A stretch of 64,000 nucleotides of DNA, taken from positions 248,001-312,000 of the forward strand of contig NC_012883.1 in NCBI RefSeq assembly GCF_000022545.1, written 5' to 3'. Within the stretch, counting starts at the first letter, position 1; the number at the start of each line of letters is the position of its first letter. The notes beneath the pieces are model-generated. The model saw only the letters and a program-made list of their open reading frames with translations, did no database searches and was not told the origin of the DNA. The stretch comes from Thermococcus sibiricus MM 739 (lineage in GTDB: Archaea > Methanobacteriota_B > Thermococci > Thermococcales > Thermococcaceae). The position numbers and the translations under genes are program-made. Shown here in pieces: positions 9,602 to 64,000 of this stretch.

Positions 9602-10924
9602 CTAAAACTTCAAGACCCTTGCCAAGATCACCAATGGATCCCATACTGGTGCAAATGGTGGGGCATAGGCTAAGTCTGCAAAGAACAAGTCTTTAGTCGT
9701 AAACCCTGCCTGCAGAGCAATTGCAAGGGCATCTACCCTTGGAAGTATTTCCGCTCCTACCGCTTGCAGACCTAGAAGTCTTCCTGTTTCTTTATCCGCC
9801 ACGGCTTTAAGCCATATCTTCTTTGCTCCCGGATAGTAGTGGGGCTTTGTCCTCGCTTCTATAAAAGCCGTTTTGACATCGTAGCCCTCTTTTAGTGCTT
9901 CTCCTTCTGTTAATCCCGTTTTTCCGATCTCCAGATCCATAAATTTAGTTATAGCTGTCCCAAGAACACCCGGAAAGCTTATCTCAGCTCCAGCTATATT
10001 GCTTCCCGCTACATAGCCCATTTTGTTCCCCGGTGGGGCTAATGGTATCCATACCCTTTTACCCGTTATGAGGTGCCTTGTCTCCGCAACGTCCCCAGCT
10101 GCATAGACGTTTTCCACACTTGTCTGCATTTTCTCATTCGTCCATATTGCTCCGGTCTCCCCAATCTTAACCCCCAGCTGTTCTGCAAGCTCGGTGTTTG
10201 GCTTGATTCCTGTGGCTATTATTACCAAATCTGCTTTATACTCTCCCGCATCGGTGATTACTTTCTCTACTCTGTCCTTTCCTTCTATCCTTAGTGTAGA
10301 TTCATTTAGGCGGAGGTTTAGGTGTTCCCTAAGTTTTGCTTCTACTATGTCGGTGATTTCTTTGTCAAAGGTTTTTCTTAAGATCCTCTCGCTCCTTCCA
10401 ATGAGTGTTACGTTTTTCCCTTGAACCACAAAAGCTTCAGCCATCTCAAGTGCTATGTAGCCCGTTCCAATAACCAAAACGTCCCTTACATCGTTCTTTT
10501 CCATGTACTCCCTTATTGCAACAGCATCTGGGGGCAAATCTGCGGTAAAGACTCCCTTCAAGTCAATGCCCTCTATATTCGGAATTCGAGGAGAAGCCCC
10601 GTTTGCGAAAACTAGGTAGTCCCACTCGTAAGTGTGTTCCCCATCTTTTTCCCGTACTCTCACGCTGCCCTGTTCAACTTCTATGACCTCTGCGTTCAAA
10701 TGTAGATCAATCCCTCTCTTTTTAATGAAAAATTCCGGTGGATAGTGCATGAGCTTCTCCTTTGGAGAAATTCCTTCAACTACATATGGCACTCCACATG
10801 GGGCATGACTAACCCATTCAGTCGCTTCAAACACTTTAACGTCCCATTCGGGTTTTAACCTCTTTACCCTTGACGCGGCACTCATCCCAGCCGCTCCGCC
10901 ACCTATGATCACTACTTTTTTCAT
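9602..10924 (-). CDS. CoA-disulfide reductase / NAD(P)H sulfur oxidoreductase
   Basis: This is a flavoprotein of the pyridine nucleotide-disulfide family. In Thermococcales, close relatives reduce elemental sulfur or polysulfide with NAD(P)H in a CoA-dependent manner (Nsr), and also reduce CoA disulfide. The 440-residue protein has the FAD motif [13 protein letters not shown] at the start, the single redox Cys43 in SHAPCGVPY, a second nucleotide-binding motif ([14 protein letters not shown]), the FAD motif VYAAGDVAE and a C-terminal dimerisation domain. The start at 10924 has GGTGAT 4 bases upstream; the ATG at 10936 lacks one. A SurR-type operator lies just upstream, suggesting control by the sulfur-response regulator. 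Confidence 0.92.
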
Positions 10925-10942
10925 AACCATCACCAAAGAAGG

Positions 10943-10959
10943 GTTGTAAACCTAAGGTT
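10943..10959 (-). promoter_or_regulatory. SurR-type operator at sulfur reductase promoter
   Basis: GTTGTAAACCTAAGGTT exactly fits GTTn3AACn5GTT, the extended site of the Thermococcales redox regulator SurR. On the minus strand the TATA-like TTAATTTTTTAA lies at about 10961-10972. The site therefore falls between the TATA box and the gene, at the expected transcription start, which is a repressing position. Confidence 0.75.
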
Positions 10960-10977
10960 AAAAAATTAATGAAAAAG

Positions 10978-12045
10978 TCAAACATTCAAAGGAAGCCTCA
11001 CGTAATCAAGAACGATTCCATAGCTCTTCTTTATCTCAACGTGCTCAACAAGCTCCTTGAATTCTCCTCCAGCCAGACCATCGCCAATTATTGCACTTCC
11101 TTGGGCAGCTTCTTTTGCCTTTCCTTCCAACCCTCTAAGCTTGACAACTGGAAGATCGAATTTATCCTCAAAGAGATCTTTAACGTCTTTTTTAAGCTCT
11201 TCTATGCGCATAAGCCTGCCCGAGAGTATTATCTCTTTTGCATCCCCCACAACGGCAAGTTCACTCGCAACGGCTTTGAGGAAGCCGTCTTTCATAGCTT
11301 CCCAGGCGTTTGCGAAGGGTTCTTCGTCCAAACGCTTTGCAAACTCTTCCGGTGGCAATATCTTCTCGGCAACTATCATGGAGGCACCTCCCCAGAATAA
11401 GTGTTGCTTTCTGACATTCCCCATTAGGTATGCAACCTCTCCATCCAATGCTCCGCTGTTAACGTAACCTACTCCGGGAAATATGGTGCCCCCAATTCCA
11501 TCTATTATTTTTCCGTTTTTGACTGCTCCAGCGTAGTTGTAGCCAAAGCCAACCTCCAGCAGAACGAAGGAAACTTCACTGTACTCTACCCCAAGTCTCT
11601 TAGCCTGATCGTAGATGCCAAGAACCGTTATGGCCATTTTATCTGCTGTCCCCATGTCAATTTTGTTGTACTTTCTCCACTCGGGAACCGTGGGGAGGTG
11701 AATAACACCGGGAATGAACCACACGTTCATGTTCTTTTCGGCCATCTCGTCTATCATTTTTTGAAGTCCAATGAGAACAGGGATTTCTTTCATTTCTTCT
11801 TCCCTTACAAGTGTCATCTCAAAGCGGTCTCTCTCAGTAAGCTCTTTTATGTGCTTAAGGGGAACACCATATCCGGAGGGGCCAATGATAATGTCTGCGT
11901 TGAAGTCTTCTATTGCCTTGACGATTTTGCTCGGCTCTTCTGCAACCACCTCGCTCGGAAAGCTGAGGTCAAGTTTTATCTTTCCGTTTTCAAGCCCGAT
12001 AGCATCAAAACTTCTCGTACCAGGGTCAACACCTATAACTCTCAT
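10978..12045 (-). CDS. DUF1464 family protein (ASKHA-like kinase fold)
   Basis: This 355-residue protein begins MRVIGVDPGTRSFD, a phosphate-1-like motif of the acetate kinase/sugar kinase/Hsp70 (ASKHA) fold. Later come GGTIFPGVGYVNSGALDGEVA and, near the C terminus, IILSGRLMRI and AAQGSAIIGDGLAGG, which fit a phosphate-2/adenosine arrangement. DUF1464 members have been annotated as predicted butyrate kinase-like, but the substrate is unknown. It ends 53 bases before the sulfur reductase gene on the same strand, a gap that holds that gene's own promoter and SurR site. An upstream GGTGATAAA precedes the ATG. Confidence 0.85.
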   Translation of the reverse strand: MRVIGVDPGTRSFDAIGLENGKIKLDLSFPSEVVAEEPSKIVKAIEDFNADIIIGPSGYGVPLKHIKELTERDRFEMTLVREEEMKEIPVLIGLQKMIDEMAEKNMNVWFIPGVIHLPTVPEWRKYNKIDMGTADKMAITVLGIYDQAKRLGVEYSEVSFVLLEVGFGYNYAGAVKNGKIIDGIGGTIFPGVGYVNSGALDGEVAYLMGNVRKQHLFWGGASMIVAEKILPPEEFAKRLDEEPFANAWEAMKDGFLKAVASELAVVGDAKEIILSGRLMRIEELKKDVKDLFEDKFDLPVVKLRGLEGKAKEAAQGSAIIGDGLAGGEFKELVEHVEIKKSYGIVLDYVRLPLNV

Positions 12046-12086
12046 TTTATCACCAAAAGAAAATAGGCAAGAGGTTTAAAAAATGC

Positions 12087-13244
12087 TCACTTTTTCTCTT
12101 CGATATAGTATCTTCCCTTAACCTTAATGAGCTTGTAAATCTCTCCCTCTTTTACTTCAAACCTCGGTTTTTCGAGTTCAAACGTTTCGTAGCTTTTCAT
12201 GTCCATGAACTGGACTTCTCTTGGTGTTAAGCTCGTAGTCATTGCCTCAAGCCTTTCATGCTCTATTGTGTCTATTTCATCCCGTTTTGCGCTCTTCCAG
12301 TCTTTGTGCTCACTTTCATGTGTCAATAGGTTCTTTAAGAGCATGCCCTTCCCATTAACTTCCTCAACCCGGTACACGTTGCCTTTTTTGTCGCAGACTA
12401 TATCTCCTTTCCTGAACTTTGGAATTCTAATCCTAACGCTCGTCCTGTAGACTTCTTTACTTGTTATTCTGTCTTGTCCAATCAGCTGATAGGCCTCGCT
12501 TATGCTTCCTCCATATCTGTCCCTTATTATCTGAGCAAGCTTTCTTGCTGCAGCAGTTGAACCCATGTAAAAGTCTAAGCCTTCTTCTTTTTCTACCGTA
12601 TCTTGAATGAATCCCATTCTATCCCGCTTCATAATTTCGTCAACCTTCTCTTCAACGAGCTTTGAAATTTCGTCTTTCTCTTCTTTTGTTAGTACTCTAT
12701 CTTCAGCTCTAGCTTGTAAAATTGCTTCAAAGTAACCTCCAAGGAACTTTTGACATCTCGGACAAACCGTCTGCCTCACATAAACTGTGACAATCTTTTT
12801 CTCATGATGAAGTTCCTTTTGCATTTCATGGATTCTTGCTTTAATCTCCACTTCGTAGTTAATTATTGCTGGGAAGTATTCGACATGCCATTCAAGGGGC
12901 TGAAAACTTACGTGGGCAGTTCCTATGGAGAGCTCTTCAATTTCCTCAAGCTCCTCTCTCGGAGCTATTTTTATACTCTTGACTCTTTCGTTGAGGGCAA
13001 GGTTCTCAATGAGGGCATTATCTGCCACTTCAAAGATAAGCTCCTCAAGATTGTAAGTCTTTGGATCAACCCAAGTGCCTTTAACCTTATAGCTTCCGCA
13101 GTTTTGACAGAGCTCGGTATTTATTTCATCCTCTATGAGAAGCACAGGGTTCTCCTTTCTAAAACAAACCTGACAGAGGCCATCTATTAATGGGCCCCCT
13201 TCATTCTCGCTAATCCCACACCTGTAGCAGAACCTTTCGCTCAT
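12087..13244 (-). CDS. nmd3: Nmd3-family ribosome biogenesis protein
   Basis: This is the archaeal homologue of eukaryotic Nmd3, which in eukaryotes is the export adaptor of the 60S subunit; in archaea it is expected to act in large-subunit maturation. The protein has 385 residues with N-terminal zinc-binding pairs: Cys6/Cys9 (CYRC), Cys24/Cys27 (CQVC), CQNC about 20 residues on, and a later CPRC in the VRQTVCPRCQKFLGG segment. The C-terminal half (RIRIPKFRKGDIVCDKKGN) is the OB/SH3-like part. The start at 13244 has GGTGAG 5 bases upstream; the ATG at 13256 is less well placed. Confidence 0.9.
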   Translation of the reverse strand: MSERFCYRCGISENEGGPLIDGLCQVCFRKENPVLLIEDEINTELCQNCGSYKVKGTWVDPKTYNLEELIFEVADNALIENLALNERVKSIKIAPREELEEIEELSIGTAHVSFQPLEWHVEYFPAIINYEVEIKARIHEMQKELHHEKKIVTVYVRQTVCPRCQKFLGGYFEAILQARAEDRVLTKEEKDEISKLVEEKVDEIMKRDRMGFIQDTVEKEEGLDFYMGSTAAARKLAQIIRDRYGGSISEAYQLIGQDRITSKEVYRTSVRIRIPKFRKGDIVCDKKGNVYRVEEVNGKGMLLKNLLTHESEHKDWKSAKRDEIDTIEHERLEAMTTSLTPREVQFMDMKSYETFELEKPRFEVKEGEIYKLIKVKGRYYIEEKK

Positions 13245-13334
13245 TCTTCTCACCACTACCAGCTGAGATTCAATGATTAAAAACTTAACTTCTTGGCAAA
13301 ATTTTTATGAAGTTTAGCATAAGAAAAACGGGGG

Positions 13335-59193: not shown

Positions 59194-59976
59194 TTACTCG
59201 GCGTATATCATTTTAATGGTCATTCCACCGTCCACAACGAAGTTCACACCTGTTATAAAGCCGGCTTTTTCGGAATCGGCCAAAAAGGCGCATATGTGGG
59301 CTATGTCCATTGGATCCCCGACCCTTCCTACGGGGTGCTGCTCATGGTCAATCGGCCTTAGGTTTGGCTCCTTTCTTAGCCGTGACTTCTTCCACCTTGA
59401 AGTTTCTATCCACCCGGGGCTCACGCAGACGACCCTTATTCTGTACTTTGCAAGGCTTATGGCGAGGGAATGAGTTAAAGCCACCAAGCCGCCCTTGGAT
59501 GCCGAGTAAGGCTCGGTGTCAGGCTCAGACATGAAGGCCCTCGTGCTGGCGATGTTTATTATGACTCCTCCTCCCCTCTTTATCATCTCTTCGGCCGCAT
59601 AGCGGGAGCAGATGTACGGCCCGGTGAGGTTCACCCTTATGACACGCTCCCACTCCTCAAGGGTTCTCTCGAATATGCTTTTCACGGACATTATGGCCGC
59701 ATTGTTCACGAGTATGTCGACTCCCCCGTAGAGTTCCACGGTTTTTTTGACCATGTTCTTTACAGATTCTTCGTCGGCAACGTCAGTCTTTATGAAGGTA
59801 ACGTCAAAGCCCTCTTTTCTCAGCATTTCCTCCCTCTCTCTGCCAGCCTCCTCGTCTATCTCCGCTATGACAACTTTAGCACCGTTTTGGGCGAACAGCT
59901 GGGCTATGGCGGCGCCTATGCCCTGTCCTCCACCCGTAACTATTGCAACCTTCTCCTCAAGGTTGTAGATGCTCAT
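59194..59976 (-). CDS. Short-chain dehydrogenase/reductase
   Basis: 260-residue classical SDR. TGGGQGIGAAIAQLF is the cofactor-binding motif, with an acidic residue after beta-2 (VVIAEIDEEA) favouring NAD(H). NNAAIM, a serine in NIASTRAF and YSASKGG form the catalytic set. Substrate is unknown; the family includes glucose/sugar and alcohol dehydrogenases. It lies 13 bases downstream of another SDR gene in a minus-strand block ending in a probable laminarinase, so a role in sugar or alcohol redox chemistry is likely. Confidence 0.92.
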   Translation of the reverse strand: MSIYNLEEKVAIVTGGGQGIGAAIAQLFAQNGAKVVIAEIDEEAGREREEMLRKEGFDVTFIKTDVADEESVKNMVKKTVELYGGVDILVNNAAIMSVKSIFERTLEEWERVIRVNLTGPYICSRYAAEEMIKRGGGVIINIASTRAFMSEPDTEPYSASKGGLVALTHSLAISLAKYRIRVVCVSPGWIETSRWKKSRLRKEPNLRPIDHEQHPVGRVGDPMDIAHICAFLADSEKAGFITGVNFVVDGGMTIKMIYAE

Positions 59977-59989
59977 AAATTCTCCCCCC

Positions 59990-60694
59990 TCAGTATTCTG
60001 GTCTCTGGTAGACGGAGCGTAGCATAAGCTCCTCGACTCTGACGTCTTTGGGGAGTTTCAGCAGGCACCTGACGGCTTCTGCTATTTCATCCGGCTTCAG
60101 GTAGCCTTTCTCCTTGGGTTTTCCTGGCTTACTTCCTCCAAAGTACGTGTCAACAGCCCCGGGCCTGAGTTCAAAGAACCTCACGTCTGGGTTCTCGATC
60201 TGGAAAGTCCTGACGAGGGCCCTGGCAGCCCACTTGGTTGAGACGTAGCCCCCTCCGTAGGGAATGAGCCTTGCCGATACGTCGGAGGTTGTCACAAGTG
60301 CCAAACCGCCGGTTCTCTTCAAGCTGTCAAGGAAGGCCTTTAAGGTTCTCCAGACGCCGAGGAGGTTAACCTCTATCATCTCGTGGAACTCCTCTTCGCT
60401 CAGTTCTTCAAGCCGTTTAAAATAGCCTAAACCGGCGTTTGCAACAACAACGTCAACGTCTCCAAAGCGTTCGAGGACTTTCTTTGAAAACTCTTCCACG
60501 CTCTCTGCCTTTGAAACGTCGAGGTGGTGATAAAATACTTCCACACCCTGCTCCTGCATCAGCTCGTGGGCAATTTTTTCCAGCCTATCAACGCTCCTAG
60601 CACCAAGTGCAAGGGCGTAGCCGTCTCTGGCCAGAGCTCTGGCAATAGCTTCCCCTATACCGCGAGATGCCCCTGTTATCACAGCAACCTTCAT
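59990..60694 (-). CDS. Short-chain dehydrogenase/reductase (AdhA-like)
   Basis: 234-residue classical SDR with TGASRGIGEAIARAL; the Arg in GARSVDRLEK after beta-2 suggests NADP(H) use. Catalytic Ser lies in VTTSDVSARL and Tyr-Lys in YVSTKWAAR. The size and the lamA-side location recall the short-chain alcohol dehydrogenase of the Pyrococcus lamA cluster. The start at 60694 has GGAGGTG 6 bases upstream; the frame stays open further upstream only because it overlaps the next gene's 3' end. Confidence 0.92.
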   Translation of the reverse strand: MKVAVITGASRGIGEAIARALARDGYALALGARSVDRLEKIAHELMQEQGVEVFYHHLDVSKAESVEEFSKKVLERFGDVDVVVANAGLGYFKRLEELSEEEFHEMIEVNLLGVWRTLKAFLDSLKRTGGLALVTTSDVSARLIPYGGGYVSTKWAARALVRTFQIENPDVRFFELRPGAVDTYFGGSKPGKPKEKGYLKPDEIAEAVRCLLKLPKDVRVEELMLRSVYQRPEY

Positions 60695-60741: not shown

Positions 60742-63700
60742 TCAATCAGATGGAAGGTAAACATCTATATCCTTAACTTTGCCCTCCCTGACCATTAGGG
60801 CGAGCTCCCCCTTTAGAGCGTTCCCTTTGACCTCAACGCTTTTACCGTCCTTCAGGTGTAGAACGGTTCTTGCCTTGTTAAGGTCGAGCTTCCAGGTGTC
60901 TTTTCTGCCCGGGTTGTGGTAGGTGACTCTACACTTTCCGAGGAAGTTGAAACTCACATTTCCTTCTTCATCAAACAGCCCTTCTGGGAGGGCGGGCTTA
61001 AAGGTAAGGGTCAGTTCTCCGTTTTCCAAACTAAAGGGTTTATCGCCCACGAACATGTTTTTCCATATGCTGAGGAACTCGGCGTTGGCACCTGTAAGTC
61101 TTGCAACGAAGCCTGTTCCATGGAGGGACTCGTCGGGGTAGGCGCTACTGACTATGAACGAGGAATTTTCGAGGGGGCTTCTTCCATAGACTGCCGGGTC
61201 AAGGAAGGCAATGATAACGTGCTTGAAGTCCTGATAGAACTCGTCGTAAACCTTACTCTTTATAAGCTCAAGCATGTACTTGTATTCCATGTGGAGCCAA
61301 ATGGACTCATTTTCTAGCCATCCGGGGGTGAACGCCCTCGCCCTGCCGATTTCTATTGGTTGGTCTTTCAGGGGGGCGTTGAGCTTGTACATCCTCAGCT
61401 TTCTGTCGTAAAGGTCGCTCTCTTTGACATTCCTGTAAACTCTCCTTAAAAGCTCCCTATTCTTGAAAACTCTGAACTGCTTGACGATACCCTCAAGGAA
61501 AAGGGGCATGCTCTTTCTCTCGAACCTTAAGATCTTTACTTCCCCGTCTTCTCCAAGTTTGTATTCTACGGGCTCGTAGTAGAAGTACATCGGAAGTAGG
61601 CCATTGTTCTCTTCCATGGCTTGCTCGAGACCGACCCATAGCTTGTTACGGAGTCTTCTTAGGCCCTCAAGAAGTTTTCCTGTCCTCACTTTTATCTCCT
61701 TGCCATTGAACCCGAGTTTTGTCCTCTCCCTGTACTCCTCGCGCAGTTTTGAGAGATTATCCCAGAGCCAGTGATCCTTCTTTTCGTCATTCCTCTGGTT
61801 GTATTCCTCGATAAACTTGAGTTCCCCACTGTAAAGATCCCAGATCTCCACGGGGATTCTTAGCTCTTCATCGGGGAACTCCTCAAAGGCTTCAATTATG
61901 AGATCAAAGAGCCTTACCAGCTCAGCACTTTCTCCCACTGAGGATCCAAAGAGTCCTGGAAGTCCATTGAGGGCATCGTACCATCCAGGCTTCCCTGCCT
62001 CCATCTCTATTCCAATTCCCGCTGGATCAAGCGTTGCGAATTTAATGAGGGCTAGGTTAAGGAGTTTGGTAATGAGATTTGTCCTATATATTTCTTCTCT
62101 CCTTCCTGCTCTCATTATGTGCTTATGCTCTTTCCTTGAGTCTATTAGTGCCTTCTTCTCTTTATCCTCCACAAGAGAGTTATACTGCCTTACCTTTCCC
62201 TTCTCAACAACATACCTTTTGCTCCTCGGGAGGACAACCATTGAATTATCGTAGTATGTGTAACTATAGTCTTCAAAGAGAAGCTCCTTCTTTTTGTCAG
62301 GGTATATTCCCAAGTAGCTTTCTATTAGGTCTAAGTTATATGTCCAATGATCGCACCAGTAGCCTTCACCGTGGACGGCGTCGATCTCTTCCTCGCAGTG
62401 TTTAAGGATTTGCCTGAGGAACTCCTCTTCGGATACTTTAAGCTTAATCCCACTGTCGTCAAGGAACATAATCAGCCTTCCTGGTGTGAAGGGTTCCTTT
62501 AAGAACTCGGTAAGCGGTTCAGGATTCTCAACGAGCTCTTTAAGGAAGTCGGAATTTTGAACCTTAAGGCGATATTTCACACCATTAATAATGAGCGGAT
62601 TGTAACCGTCTGCCTGTATGAGGTTCATGAAAAACCTTATGTCATAGTTCCTTATCTCGGGATGAAAGAAAACGTTCTCCCGCCTGTTCTGATTAACATC
62701 TCTGTAAGCACCGTTTCCAGTCGAATAGTACTCGGGGGTGAGGGCGAAGTAGTTGTAATCCCTCTCCTGGTCGCCGTGTTTCCTCAGGTAGAGGTAGTAG
62801 ACAAAGGGCCTTTCCTCTTCAAGGACAAGTGGATACCCACCCCGAAGGATGTTATCGAGGTAACACTGCTTGGCGTATTCATCAAAAAGCCTTAGGGAGG
62901 TTCTCGTTGATATATCATTTACTATCTCATCTATTATCGCATTTCCCTCGGCATATTTCTGCTCAAGGTACCTTTTGTCGGCAAAATTCTTTGCGTAGCC
63001 TTCGAGCATTGCTATATGGGGCACGTAGCCGATTACAGAGTAAAGTTTAACATCCTCTCCCGGTTTGAGTTGGAGCTCAATGGGGGAGAATGCCGAGGGG
63101 AGTTTGTTAAAGGTTATCTGTCTCGCCTTGACAAGCTCGCTTAACGGCCTGTTGATGAAGTTTTCGGGCCGGAGCATAGATGTATCACTACCAAAAACAA
63201 GATCAGGGTCAACTATAGGCCTCACAAGTTCGCTCTTTCCGTCTCTGTTTACAAGGGAGATATAGAATGTACCCTCAGTTAGTTCCTCCACCTTTGGGAC
63301 ATCTTCTGTTGAGGATCTGAGCTTGAAGAAGGGCATCCCCTTTTCGAGGTTGTGAACTTCCATCCAAGCCTTTATCGTTGTGAGCATGTACTTTAGGACG
63401 TAGTCGTTTACGCCGTAAGGAACAATAGTGGACATGCCGTCAAGCACTTCAATCCTTTTGGTGGTAGTAGAAATATTTTCTATTGTGACTTTCCTAACGA
63501 GGGCCGGAATCCTCTCCCCTGGGATGGTGTAATAAAGGATGTTGATTTTTAACCCGAGGTCCTTGTTGAGTTCCTCGATCTCAAGCTCGTTCCGCCCAAT
63601 GTACATCCTCTGGGTGGCATGTTCATTGGGAGTGAAAGGCTCGTAGAAGGACCCTTCCTCCGGCAGTTTTATGAATGTCCTGAATCCGTGAGTTCTCACT

Positions 63701-63918
63701 CTCTGATAGGCCTTAACGGCAGACTCAAACTCCATTATTGGATGATCTTTGTCTTGTATACCAAAGGAGCTTATACACTGTGCCCTGTTAACGTAGAATA
63801 CCCAGAGAGGTATACCCCTTTTTCCGGCTATGCCAGGCAGAAAGCTTGCGAATGGCTTGGAATAGTTATAGTTCTCCATAAAAAACCTGCCTTTCTCGTC
63901 GAAGCCATATGGTGTCAT
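60742..63918 (-). CDS. Large GH94/GH149/GH161-like glycoside phosphorylase
   Basis: This 1058-residue protein has the multi-domain build of cellobiose phosphorylase-like enzymes. A beta-sandwich N domain (YGFDEKGRFFMENY, then PWVFYVNR-like strands) is followed by an (alpha/alpha)6 barrel with YWCDHWTYNLDLIESYLG, whose Asp is a candidate general acid, and GIEMEAGKPGWYDALNGLPG. A C-terminal beta domain follows. No signal peptide is seen, so it is cytosolic. Given the adjoining GH16-like end, phosphorolysis of beta-1,3-gluco-oligosaccharides is the likely role; the exact family needs a search. GGAGTGATGAG precedes the ATG. Confidence 0.75.
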   Translation of the reverse strand: MTPYGFDEKGRFFMENYNYSKPFASFLPGIAGKRGIPLWVFYVNRAQCISSFGIQDKDHPIMEFESAVKAYQRVRTHGFRTFIKLPEEGSFYEPFTPNEHATQRMYIGRNELEIEELNKDLGLKINILYYTIPGERIPALVRKVTIENISTTTKRIEVLDGMSTIVPYGVNDYVLKYMLTTIKAWMEVHNLEKGMPFFKLRSSTEDVPKVEELTEGTFYISLVNRDGKSELVRPIVDPDLVFGSDTSMLRPENFINRPLSELVKARQITFNKLPSAFSPIELQLKPGEDVKLYSVIGYVPHIAMLEGYAKNFADKRYLEQKYAEGNAIIDEIVNDISTRTSLRLFDEYAKQCYLDNILRGGYPLVLEEERPFVYYLYLRKHGDQERDYNYFALTPEYYSTGNGAYRDVNQNRRENVFFHPEIRNYDIRFFMNLIQADGYNPLIINGVKYRLKVQNSDFLKELVENPEPLTEFLKEPFTPGRLIMFLDDSGIKLKVSEEEFLRQILKHCEEEIDAVHGEGYWCDHWTYNLDLIESYLGIYPDKKKELLFEDYSYTYYDNSMVVLPRSKRYVVEKGKVRQYNSLVEDKEKKALIDSRKEHKHIMRAGRREEIYRTNLITKLLNLALIKFATLDPAGIGIEMEAGKPGWYDALNGLPGLFGSSVGESAELVRLFDLIIEAFEEFPDEELRIPVEIWDLYSGELKFIEEYNQRNDEKKDHWLWDNLSKLREEYRERTKLGFNGKEIKVRTGKLLEGLRRLRNKLWVGLEQAMEENNGLLPMYFYYEPVEYKLGEDGEVKILRFERKSMPLFLEGIVKQFRVFKNRELLRRVYRNVKESDLYDRKLRMYKLNAPLKDQPIEIGRARAFTPGWLENESIWLHMEYKYMLELIKSKVYDEFYQDFKHVIIAFLDPAVYGRSPLENSSFIVSSAYPDESLHGTGFVARLTGANAEFLSIWKNMFVGDKPFSLENGELTLTFKPALPEGLFDEEGNVSFNFLGKCRVTYHNPGRKDTWKLDLNKARTVLHLKDGKSVEVKGNALKGELALMVREGKVKDIDVYLPSD

Positions 63919-63957
63919 TTCTCATCACTCCTTGTAGATAGAAAGATTAGAGAAGAA

Positions 63958-64000
63958 TTAGTTCTCAACAAGCCGGTAAACCCTCACGTAATCCACATAC
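63958..64000 (-). CDS. C-terminal end of probable GH16 laminarinase (partial)
   Basis: The last 13 codons before the stop at 63958-63960 read YVDYVRVYRLVEN. '(Y/V)VD(Y/W)VRVY' is the classic end of GH16 endo-beta-1,3-glucanases, including Pyrococcus LamA. Only this scrap lies inside the window, so the call rests on a short but characteristic motif and on the phosphorylase-like gene beginning 40 bases downstream. Confidence 0.6.
   Translation of the reverse strand, partial: YVDYVRVYRLVEN

Follow-up and report, generated by a model that had tools for sequence, protein, structure and literature searches.

A predicted GH161 beta-1,3-glucan phosphorylase in the laminarin/beta-glucan island of Thermococcus sibiricus

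Introduction

A 1058-residue open reading frame lies at one end of the window considered here, a stretch of 64,000 nucleotides from Thermococcus sibiricus MM 739 (contig NC_012883.1, positions 248,001 to 312,000). Its position beside a laminarinase gene raises the question of whether this archaeon dismantles beta-1,3-glucan by phosphorolysis rather than by hydrolysis. A sequence-only reading of the window had proposed that laminarin is cut outside the cell, taken up and then cleaved by a phosphorylase. This phosphorolytic interpretation largely holds and is supported by the comparisons described below. They point, with a probability of roughly 0.88, to a cytoplasmic GH161 beta-1,3-glucan phosphorylase that serves a degradative route within a laminarin/beta-glucan island. 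A "saccharolytic gene island" has been published for T. sibiricus (Mardanov et al., 2009, as cited in PMC4574382 and PMC6981617) and, as far as these citations describe it, is almost certainly the GH161 locus. The GH161 assignment of the gene may or may not be new relative to the 2009 genome paper.

Gene Arrangement of the Locus

The genes are listed in their order along the minus strand, from downstream to upstream. Coordinates with the prefix L002 refer to C1:308000-326000, which was taken from the same genome for the sequence beyond the window.

59194..59976, minus strand: short-chain dehydrogenase (SDR) 2, 260 aa, absent from the conserved neighbourhood of other islands
59990..60694 (alternative end 60745), minus strand: SDR 1, 234 aa, matching the solved structures 3L77/3TN7
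60742..63918, minus strand: predicted GH161 beta-1,3-glucan phosphorylase, 1058 aa, ATG start (phmmer, profile search, predicted fold, active-site alignment)
63958..64000, minus strand: 3' end of the GH16 laminarinase gene, last ~14 codons (319 aa whole), the rest lying outside the window (C1:311958-312917 = L002:3959-4918)
L002:4924-5412, minus strand, outside the window: PIN-like ORF, preceded by a small antitoxin-like ORF
L002:5629-7140, minus strand, outside the window: GH1 beta-glucosidase
L002:7137-8612, minus strand, outside the window: GH50-like protein, 491 aa, with a lipoprotein-like N-terminus
L002:8654-9790 and 9909-13277, minus strand, outside the window: GH12-fold proteins
L002:13359 onward, divergent, outside the window: ABC transporter (family-5 binding protein, two permeases, ATPase)

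The stop codon of the GH16 gene (63958-63960) and the ATG of the phosphorylase gene (63916-63918) are separated by ~40 nt, so the sequence-only description of the one starting directly after the other is accurate. Going upstream on the minus strand, the order is GH16, PIN-like, antitoxin-like, GH1, GH50-like and GH12-fold, and then the divergent ABC transporter; the locus thereby shows the usual, not obligatory, context of GH161 genes (GH1, GH3 or GH16 together with an ABC transporter). Downstream, two SDR genes follow, also as described. The first scores 510 bits over 234 aa against the solved alcohol dehydrogenase 3L77/3TN7. Since 3L77 has its first residue at the same place, this gene probably starts at the ATG at 60694; its position beside GH161 is conserved across Thermococcales islands. 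The second was considered as a member of the system and rejected, since it is not conserved in the other islands; it probably stands outside the pathway. A promoter and terminator scan, together with one short motif (TATCAC), returned nothing above chance; the scan is of bacterial type and uninformative for archaea.

The upstream gene belongs to GH16, as had been assumed. It matches PF00722 with 103 bits (E 1.4e-29, cut-off 22), and its product includes the catalytic ExDxxE motif as EIDIME at residue 192. By eye, the N-terminus shows a hydrophobic stretch followed by a lipobox-like GFIGGC. The nearest solved relative is the endo-beta-1,3-glucanase LamA of Pyrococcus furiosus (2vy0, E 1.9e-135). 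The lamA locus of P. furiosus contains alcohol dehydrogenase genes and is not known to contain a GH161 gene.

Family Assignment and Active Site of the Phosphorylase

The 1058-aa ORF shares 70-84% identity over its full length with other archaeal homologues, and because of this conservation it is not a chance ORF. Residues ~11-1054 match the GH161 entries 9h8v/9qqk in a phmmer search of the PDB (E ~1e-272), and a profile built from 17 archaeal and bacterial relatives places the same two entries on top with 1478 bits, followed at far lower scores by GH149 (6hq6) and the GH94 laminaribiose phosphorylase 6ggy. The predicted model has the clan GH-Q fold and is closer to GH161 structures than to those of GH149 or GH94, with TM-scores of 0.91 to GH161 (9gy9), 0.74 to GH149 (6hq6) and 0.67 to GH94 (6ggy); its confidence is lowest at the active-site loops. 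The best match is therefore to a phosphorylase family, GH161, as the phosphorolytic interpretation had anticipated.

Membership of the two related families was considered and rejected. With the NCBIfam model of GH149 it scores only 93.7 bits, where the cut-off is 1150, and the protein has no Pfam GH94 match; a Pfam search of the protein finds no family at E 0.1, and PF17167 (GH94) has zero matches across the whole T. sibiricus genome.

The active-site residues of THA_1941 have been mapped onto the cellobiose phosphorylase of Cellvibrio gilvus (PMC5501786), and the corresponding positions were transferred to the T. sibiricus protein from sequence offsets and the alignment rather than from superposed structures. 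This alignment places the catalytic aspartate at D648, the phosphate-binding positions at R386, H876, T942 and G943, and the sugar-site positions at R406, D407, W646, F863, E869, N870 and W874. Ten of these 12 residues are identical to those of the C. gilvus enzyme and the other two differ conservatively (F863, Tyr there; W874, Phe there). All 12 are invariant across the ten archaeal GH161 sequences compared. Together, sequence, predicted fold and mapped active site assign the protein to GH161 as a predicted beta-1,3-glucan phosphorylase.

A Putative Phosphorolytic Route

The proposed route would begin outside the cell, where the GH16 lipoprotein, putatively exported, would cut beta-1,3-glucan. 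The oligosaccharides would be imported by the divergent ABC transporter, which gives substance to the uptake step that the sequence-only reading had assumed. The nearest solved relatives of its binding protein are from Thermotoga maritima (2o7i, E 5e-150; 4jsd, E 1.6e-148). Of the structures of this T. maritima protein, tmCBP, 4jsd is the laminaribiose and 4jso the laminaripentaose complex, and tmCBP accepts both beta-1,3 and beta-1,4 glucans as ligands (PMC3850815). This dual binding, together with the presence of GH50-like and GH12-fold proteins, suggests that the natural substrate may be mixed.

Inside the cell, the GH161 protein, in which no signal peptide was seen, would use phosphate to remove the terminal glucose, releasing alpha-glucose-1-phosphate and a shorter chain, down to laminaribiose. 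Laminaribiose would then be hydrolysed to glucose by the cytoplasmic GH1 enzyme, which is the likely candidate for this step since the genome is without GH94. Phosphoglucomutase and ADP-dependent glucokinase would carry both products into glycolysis; a search of the genome gives three strong matches to phosphohexomutases, and two genes for ADP-dependent sugar kinases are present as well. Phosphorolysis would spare one phosphorylation per glucose released. As a set of predicted genes, the chain from GH16 through the ABC transporter and GH161 with GH1 to glycolysis is complete. For the GH161 protein itself we infer catalysis, a beta-1,3 preference, a minimum DP of 3 and a degradative direction, and for the island co-expression; the characterized bacterial relatives PapP and TaCDP, the latter thermophilic, cleave laminaritriose and longer chains but neither laminaribiose nor cellotriose (PMC6484121).

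Other Genes of the Island

The ORF at L002:4924-5412 on the minus strand and a 71-aa ORF just upstream of it form a VapBC-like pair between GH1 and GH16. The pair occupies the same position in four other islands, where the antitoxin-like ORF is 57-78% identical; the name is tentative, because the PIN and VAPB_antitox Pfam matches are below the cut-off.

The GH12-fold surface proteins, one of which carries a CGP-CTERM sorting signal, reach a TM-score of 0.84 to the T. maritima GH12 endoglucanase. A GH12-fold protein has Tyr288 at the position aligned with the acid/base Glu, and the assignment of the second catalytic Glu is uncertain too; these are possibly non-catalytic glucan-binding proteins. 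In the multi-domain GH12-like gene an in-frame TGA (L002:11754-11756, minus strand) splits the coding sequence where relatives have glycine. The frame is continuous across the TGA, with no frameshift, and the break is either a nonsense mutation or a sequencing error.

The 491-aa GH50-like protein is related to GH50 agarases (E 4e-53), and its gene is kept in all full islands and in both Thermoproteota loci. Because of the neighbouring genes, its substrate may be a beta-glycan other than agar.

Distribution and History

GH161 occurs in seven of 94 Thermococcaceae genomes and is full length in five of them; a search of 115 genomes of the phylum found no GH161 beyond these seven. The four full-length cases other than T. 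sibiricus share one order (GH12-like, GH50-like, GH1, antitoxin-like, PIN-like, GH16, GH161, SDR). The Thermococcaceae genomes with GH16 are exactly the five with full-length GH161 islands, a co-occurrence whose p of 3.8e-7 overstates independence because kinship is ignored. In one genome with a truncated copy (G077, L094:7640-7740), truncated copies of GH161 and of the binding-protein gene abut directly, as if ~10 kb including the GH16, GH1 and GH12-like genes had been deleted, unless an assembly error is responsible.

Outside Thermococcaceae, GH161 is present in a Staphylothermus MAG (81% identity) and a Thermoprotei MAG (84%), and in three further genomes among 398 of Thermoproteota, two of which have broken frames. 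An origin of the MAG hits as stray Thermococcus contigs was judged unlikely, because a TauE-like gene neighbours GH161 in two independent MAGs, in L004 the gene and the contig that carries it have equal GC content, and GH161 also lies on a contig of 1.3 Mb (G308). Bacterial relatives reach at most 46% identity in a genome search that was run without Thermotogota and Halobacteria. A maximum-likelihood tree was built from 31 sequences and rooted only at the midpoint, with the bacterial sequences acting as outgroup to the archaeal ones. It unites archaeal GH161 in a single clade (100/100), within which the Thermoproteota sequences are nested in Thermococcales beside T. sibiricus. This nesting suggests that the gene passed from a Thermococcus to Thermoproteota.

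In Thermoproteota the gene stands apart from other glucan genes; the Staphylothermus contig has a damaged SDR gene beside it. The two genomes G308 and G115, with intact GH161, have a second locus with GH16, ABC transporter, GH50-like and GH12-like genes, about 43-66% identical to those of the Thermococcus island. In G355 (L128) and G502 (L129), where the GH161 frame is interrupted, neither GH16 nor an island-type binding protein was found. In the incomplete genome of the Thermoprotei MAG (G116), GH161 is present and no GH16 was found. The pairing of intact GH161 with an unlinked GH16/ABC locus, and of broken GH161 with none, covers four genomes, too few for a firm rule. Tentatively, and at a little under even odds, the phosphorolytic step could be a detachable module: the Thermococcus GH161 gene, alone or with the SDR gene, would have moved into Thermoproteota, upgraded unlinked hydrolytic beta-glucan loci, and decayed where import and GH16 genes are missing. 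This idea draws on tree nesting, isolated gene positions, separate loci and broken frames, in two intact and two broken cases.

Alternative Explanations

The linkage specificity is the point at which another reading comes closest, although it is still improbable: the enzyme might be a phosphorylase acting mainly on beta-1,4 or mixed-linkage glucan oligosaccharides of the cellodextrin or lichenan type. The relative of the island's binding protein, tmCBP, also binds cello-oligosaccharides, the island holds GH12-fold proteins, T. sibiricus has been reported to grow weakly on cellulose (Mardanov et al., 2009, in the form cited in PMC4853606), and THA_1941 was initially published as a cellodextrin phosphorylase (PMC5501786). 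However, THA_1941 and PapP were later found to be active on laminaritriose and not on cellotriose (PMC6484121), and the adjoining GH16 protein is closest to an endo-beta-1,3-glucanase.

Two further readings accept beta-1,3-glucan and assign GH161 a different part. Laminarin could be degraded hydrolytically by GH16 and GH1, with GH161 as a minor or decaying passenger; GH1 could indeed complete degradation alone, and damaged copies of GH161, interrupted or cut short, occur in G077, G355 and G502. The broken copies, though, sit in genomes in which no GH16 was found, whereas the gene is full length with an intact active site in the five Thermococcaceae, where it is kept at 70-82% identity, and in the Thermoproteota genomes G115 and G308, which makes a passenger role very unlikely. 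Least probable of all, with only a slight chance, is a mainly synthetic enzyme that would make beta-1,3-glucan from glucose-1-phosphate, for example as a reserve. The reaction is reversible, TaCDP forms insoluble beta-1,3-glucan in vitro (PMC6484121), and in some Thermoproteota GH161 lies outside any glucan locus; against this, GH161 is downstream of GH16 and near the ABC importer or glucan genes in five of five full Thermococcaceae islands, and an intact GH161 accompanies the locus with GH16 and importer in G308 and G115. The degradative beta-1,3-glucan phosphorylase thus remains the preferred reading.

Comparison with Known Systems

GH161 is an established family with bacterial and algal members. 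T. sibiricus GH161 shares its family, the mapped catalytic and phosphate residues and the cytoplasmic site with PapP of Paenibacillus polymyxa and with TaCDP/THA_1941 of Thermosipho africanus. The gene of PapP also adjoins GH1 and ABC transporter genes (PMC6484121). The archaeal clade shares only some 46% identity with those bacterial relatives that the searches reached. The laminarin locus of Bacillus weihaiensis Alg07, to the extent that it is described in PMC6484121, contains GH16, GH30, GH1 and GH161. Set against that description, T. sibiricus likewise has a GH16 laminarinase, a cytoplasmic GH1 enzyme and GH161; unlike Alg07, no GH30 gene was seen in its island, which has a GH50-like protein, GH12-fold surface proteins and a T. 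maritima-type importer instead.

Among archaea, a GH161 gene has been reported in curdlan-degrading haloarchaea and connected with their growth on this glucan and on laminarin (PMC9726719, 2022). These are Halobacteria, in which GH161 occurs with GH81 and GH3. The literature searched contained no assayed archaeal GH161 and no paper on GH161 in Thermococcales. The sequence-only statement that such a route is not well described in archaea consequently stands for the enzymology and, within that literature, for Thermococcales; beyond this it has to be narrowed, because the saccharolytic island is published and GH161 is listed for curdlan-growing haloarchaea (PMC9726719).

Significance

What is new is the common arrangement in five Thermococcaceae, the restriction of GH16 to these five among 94 genomes and the single archaeal GH161 clade, as well as the occurrence in some Thermoproteota of an isolated GH161 nested beside the T. 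sibiricus gene. The apparent transfer from Thermococcales to Thermoproteota offers a natural comparison of one pathway in its hydrolytic and its phosphorolytic form, and a hyperthermophilic GH161 would be useful in beta-1,3-glucan synthesis. The island indicates a way in which certain hyperthermophilic archaea may feed on beta-1,3-glucan from algae, by cutting it outside the cell, importing the fragments and cleaving them with phosphate. The phosphorylation spared per sugar matters to fermenters living near the energy limit, for example in oil reservoirs and vents.
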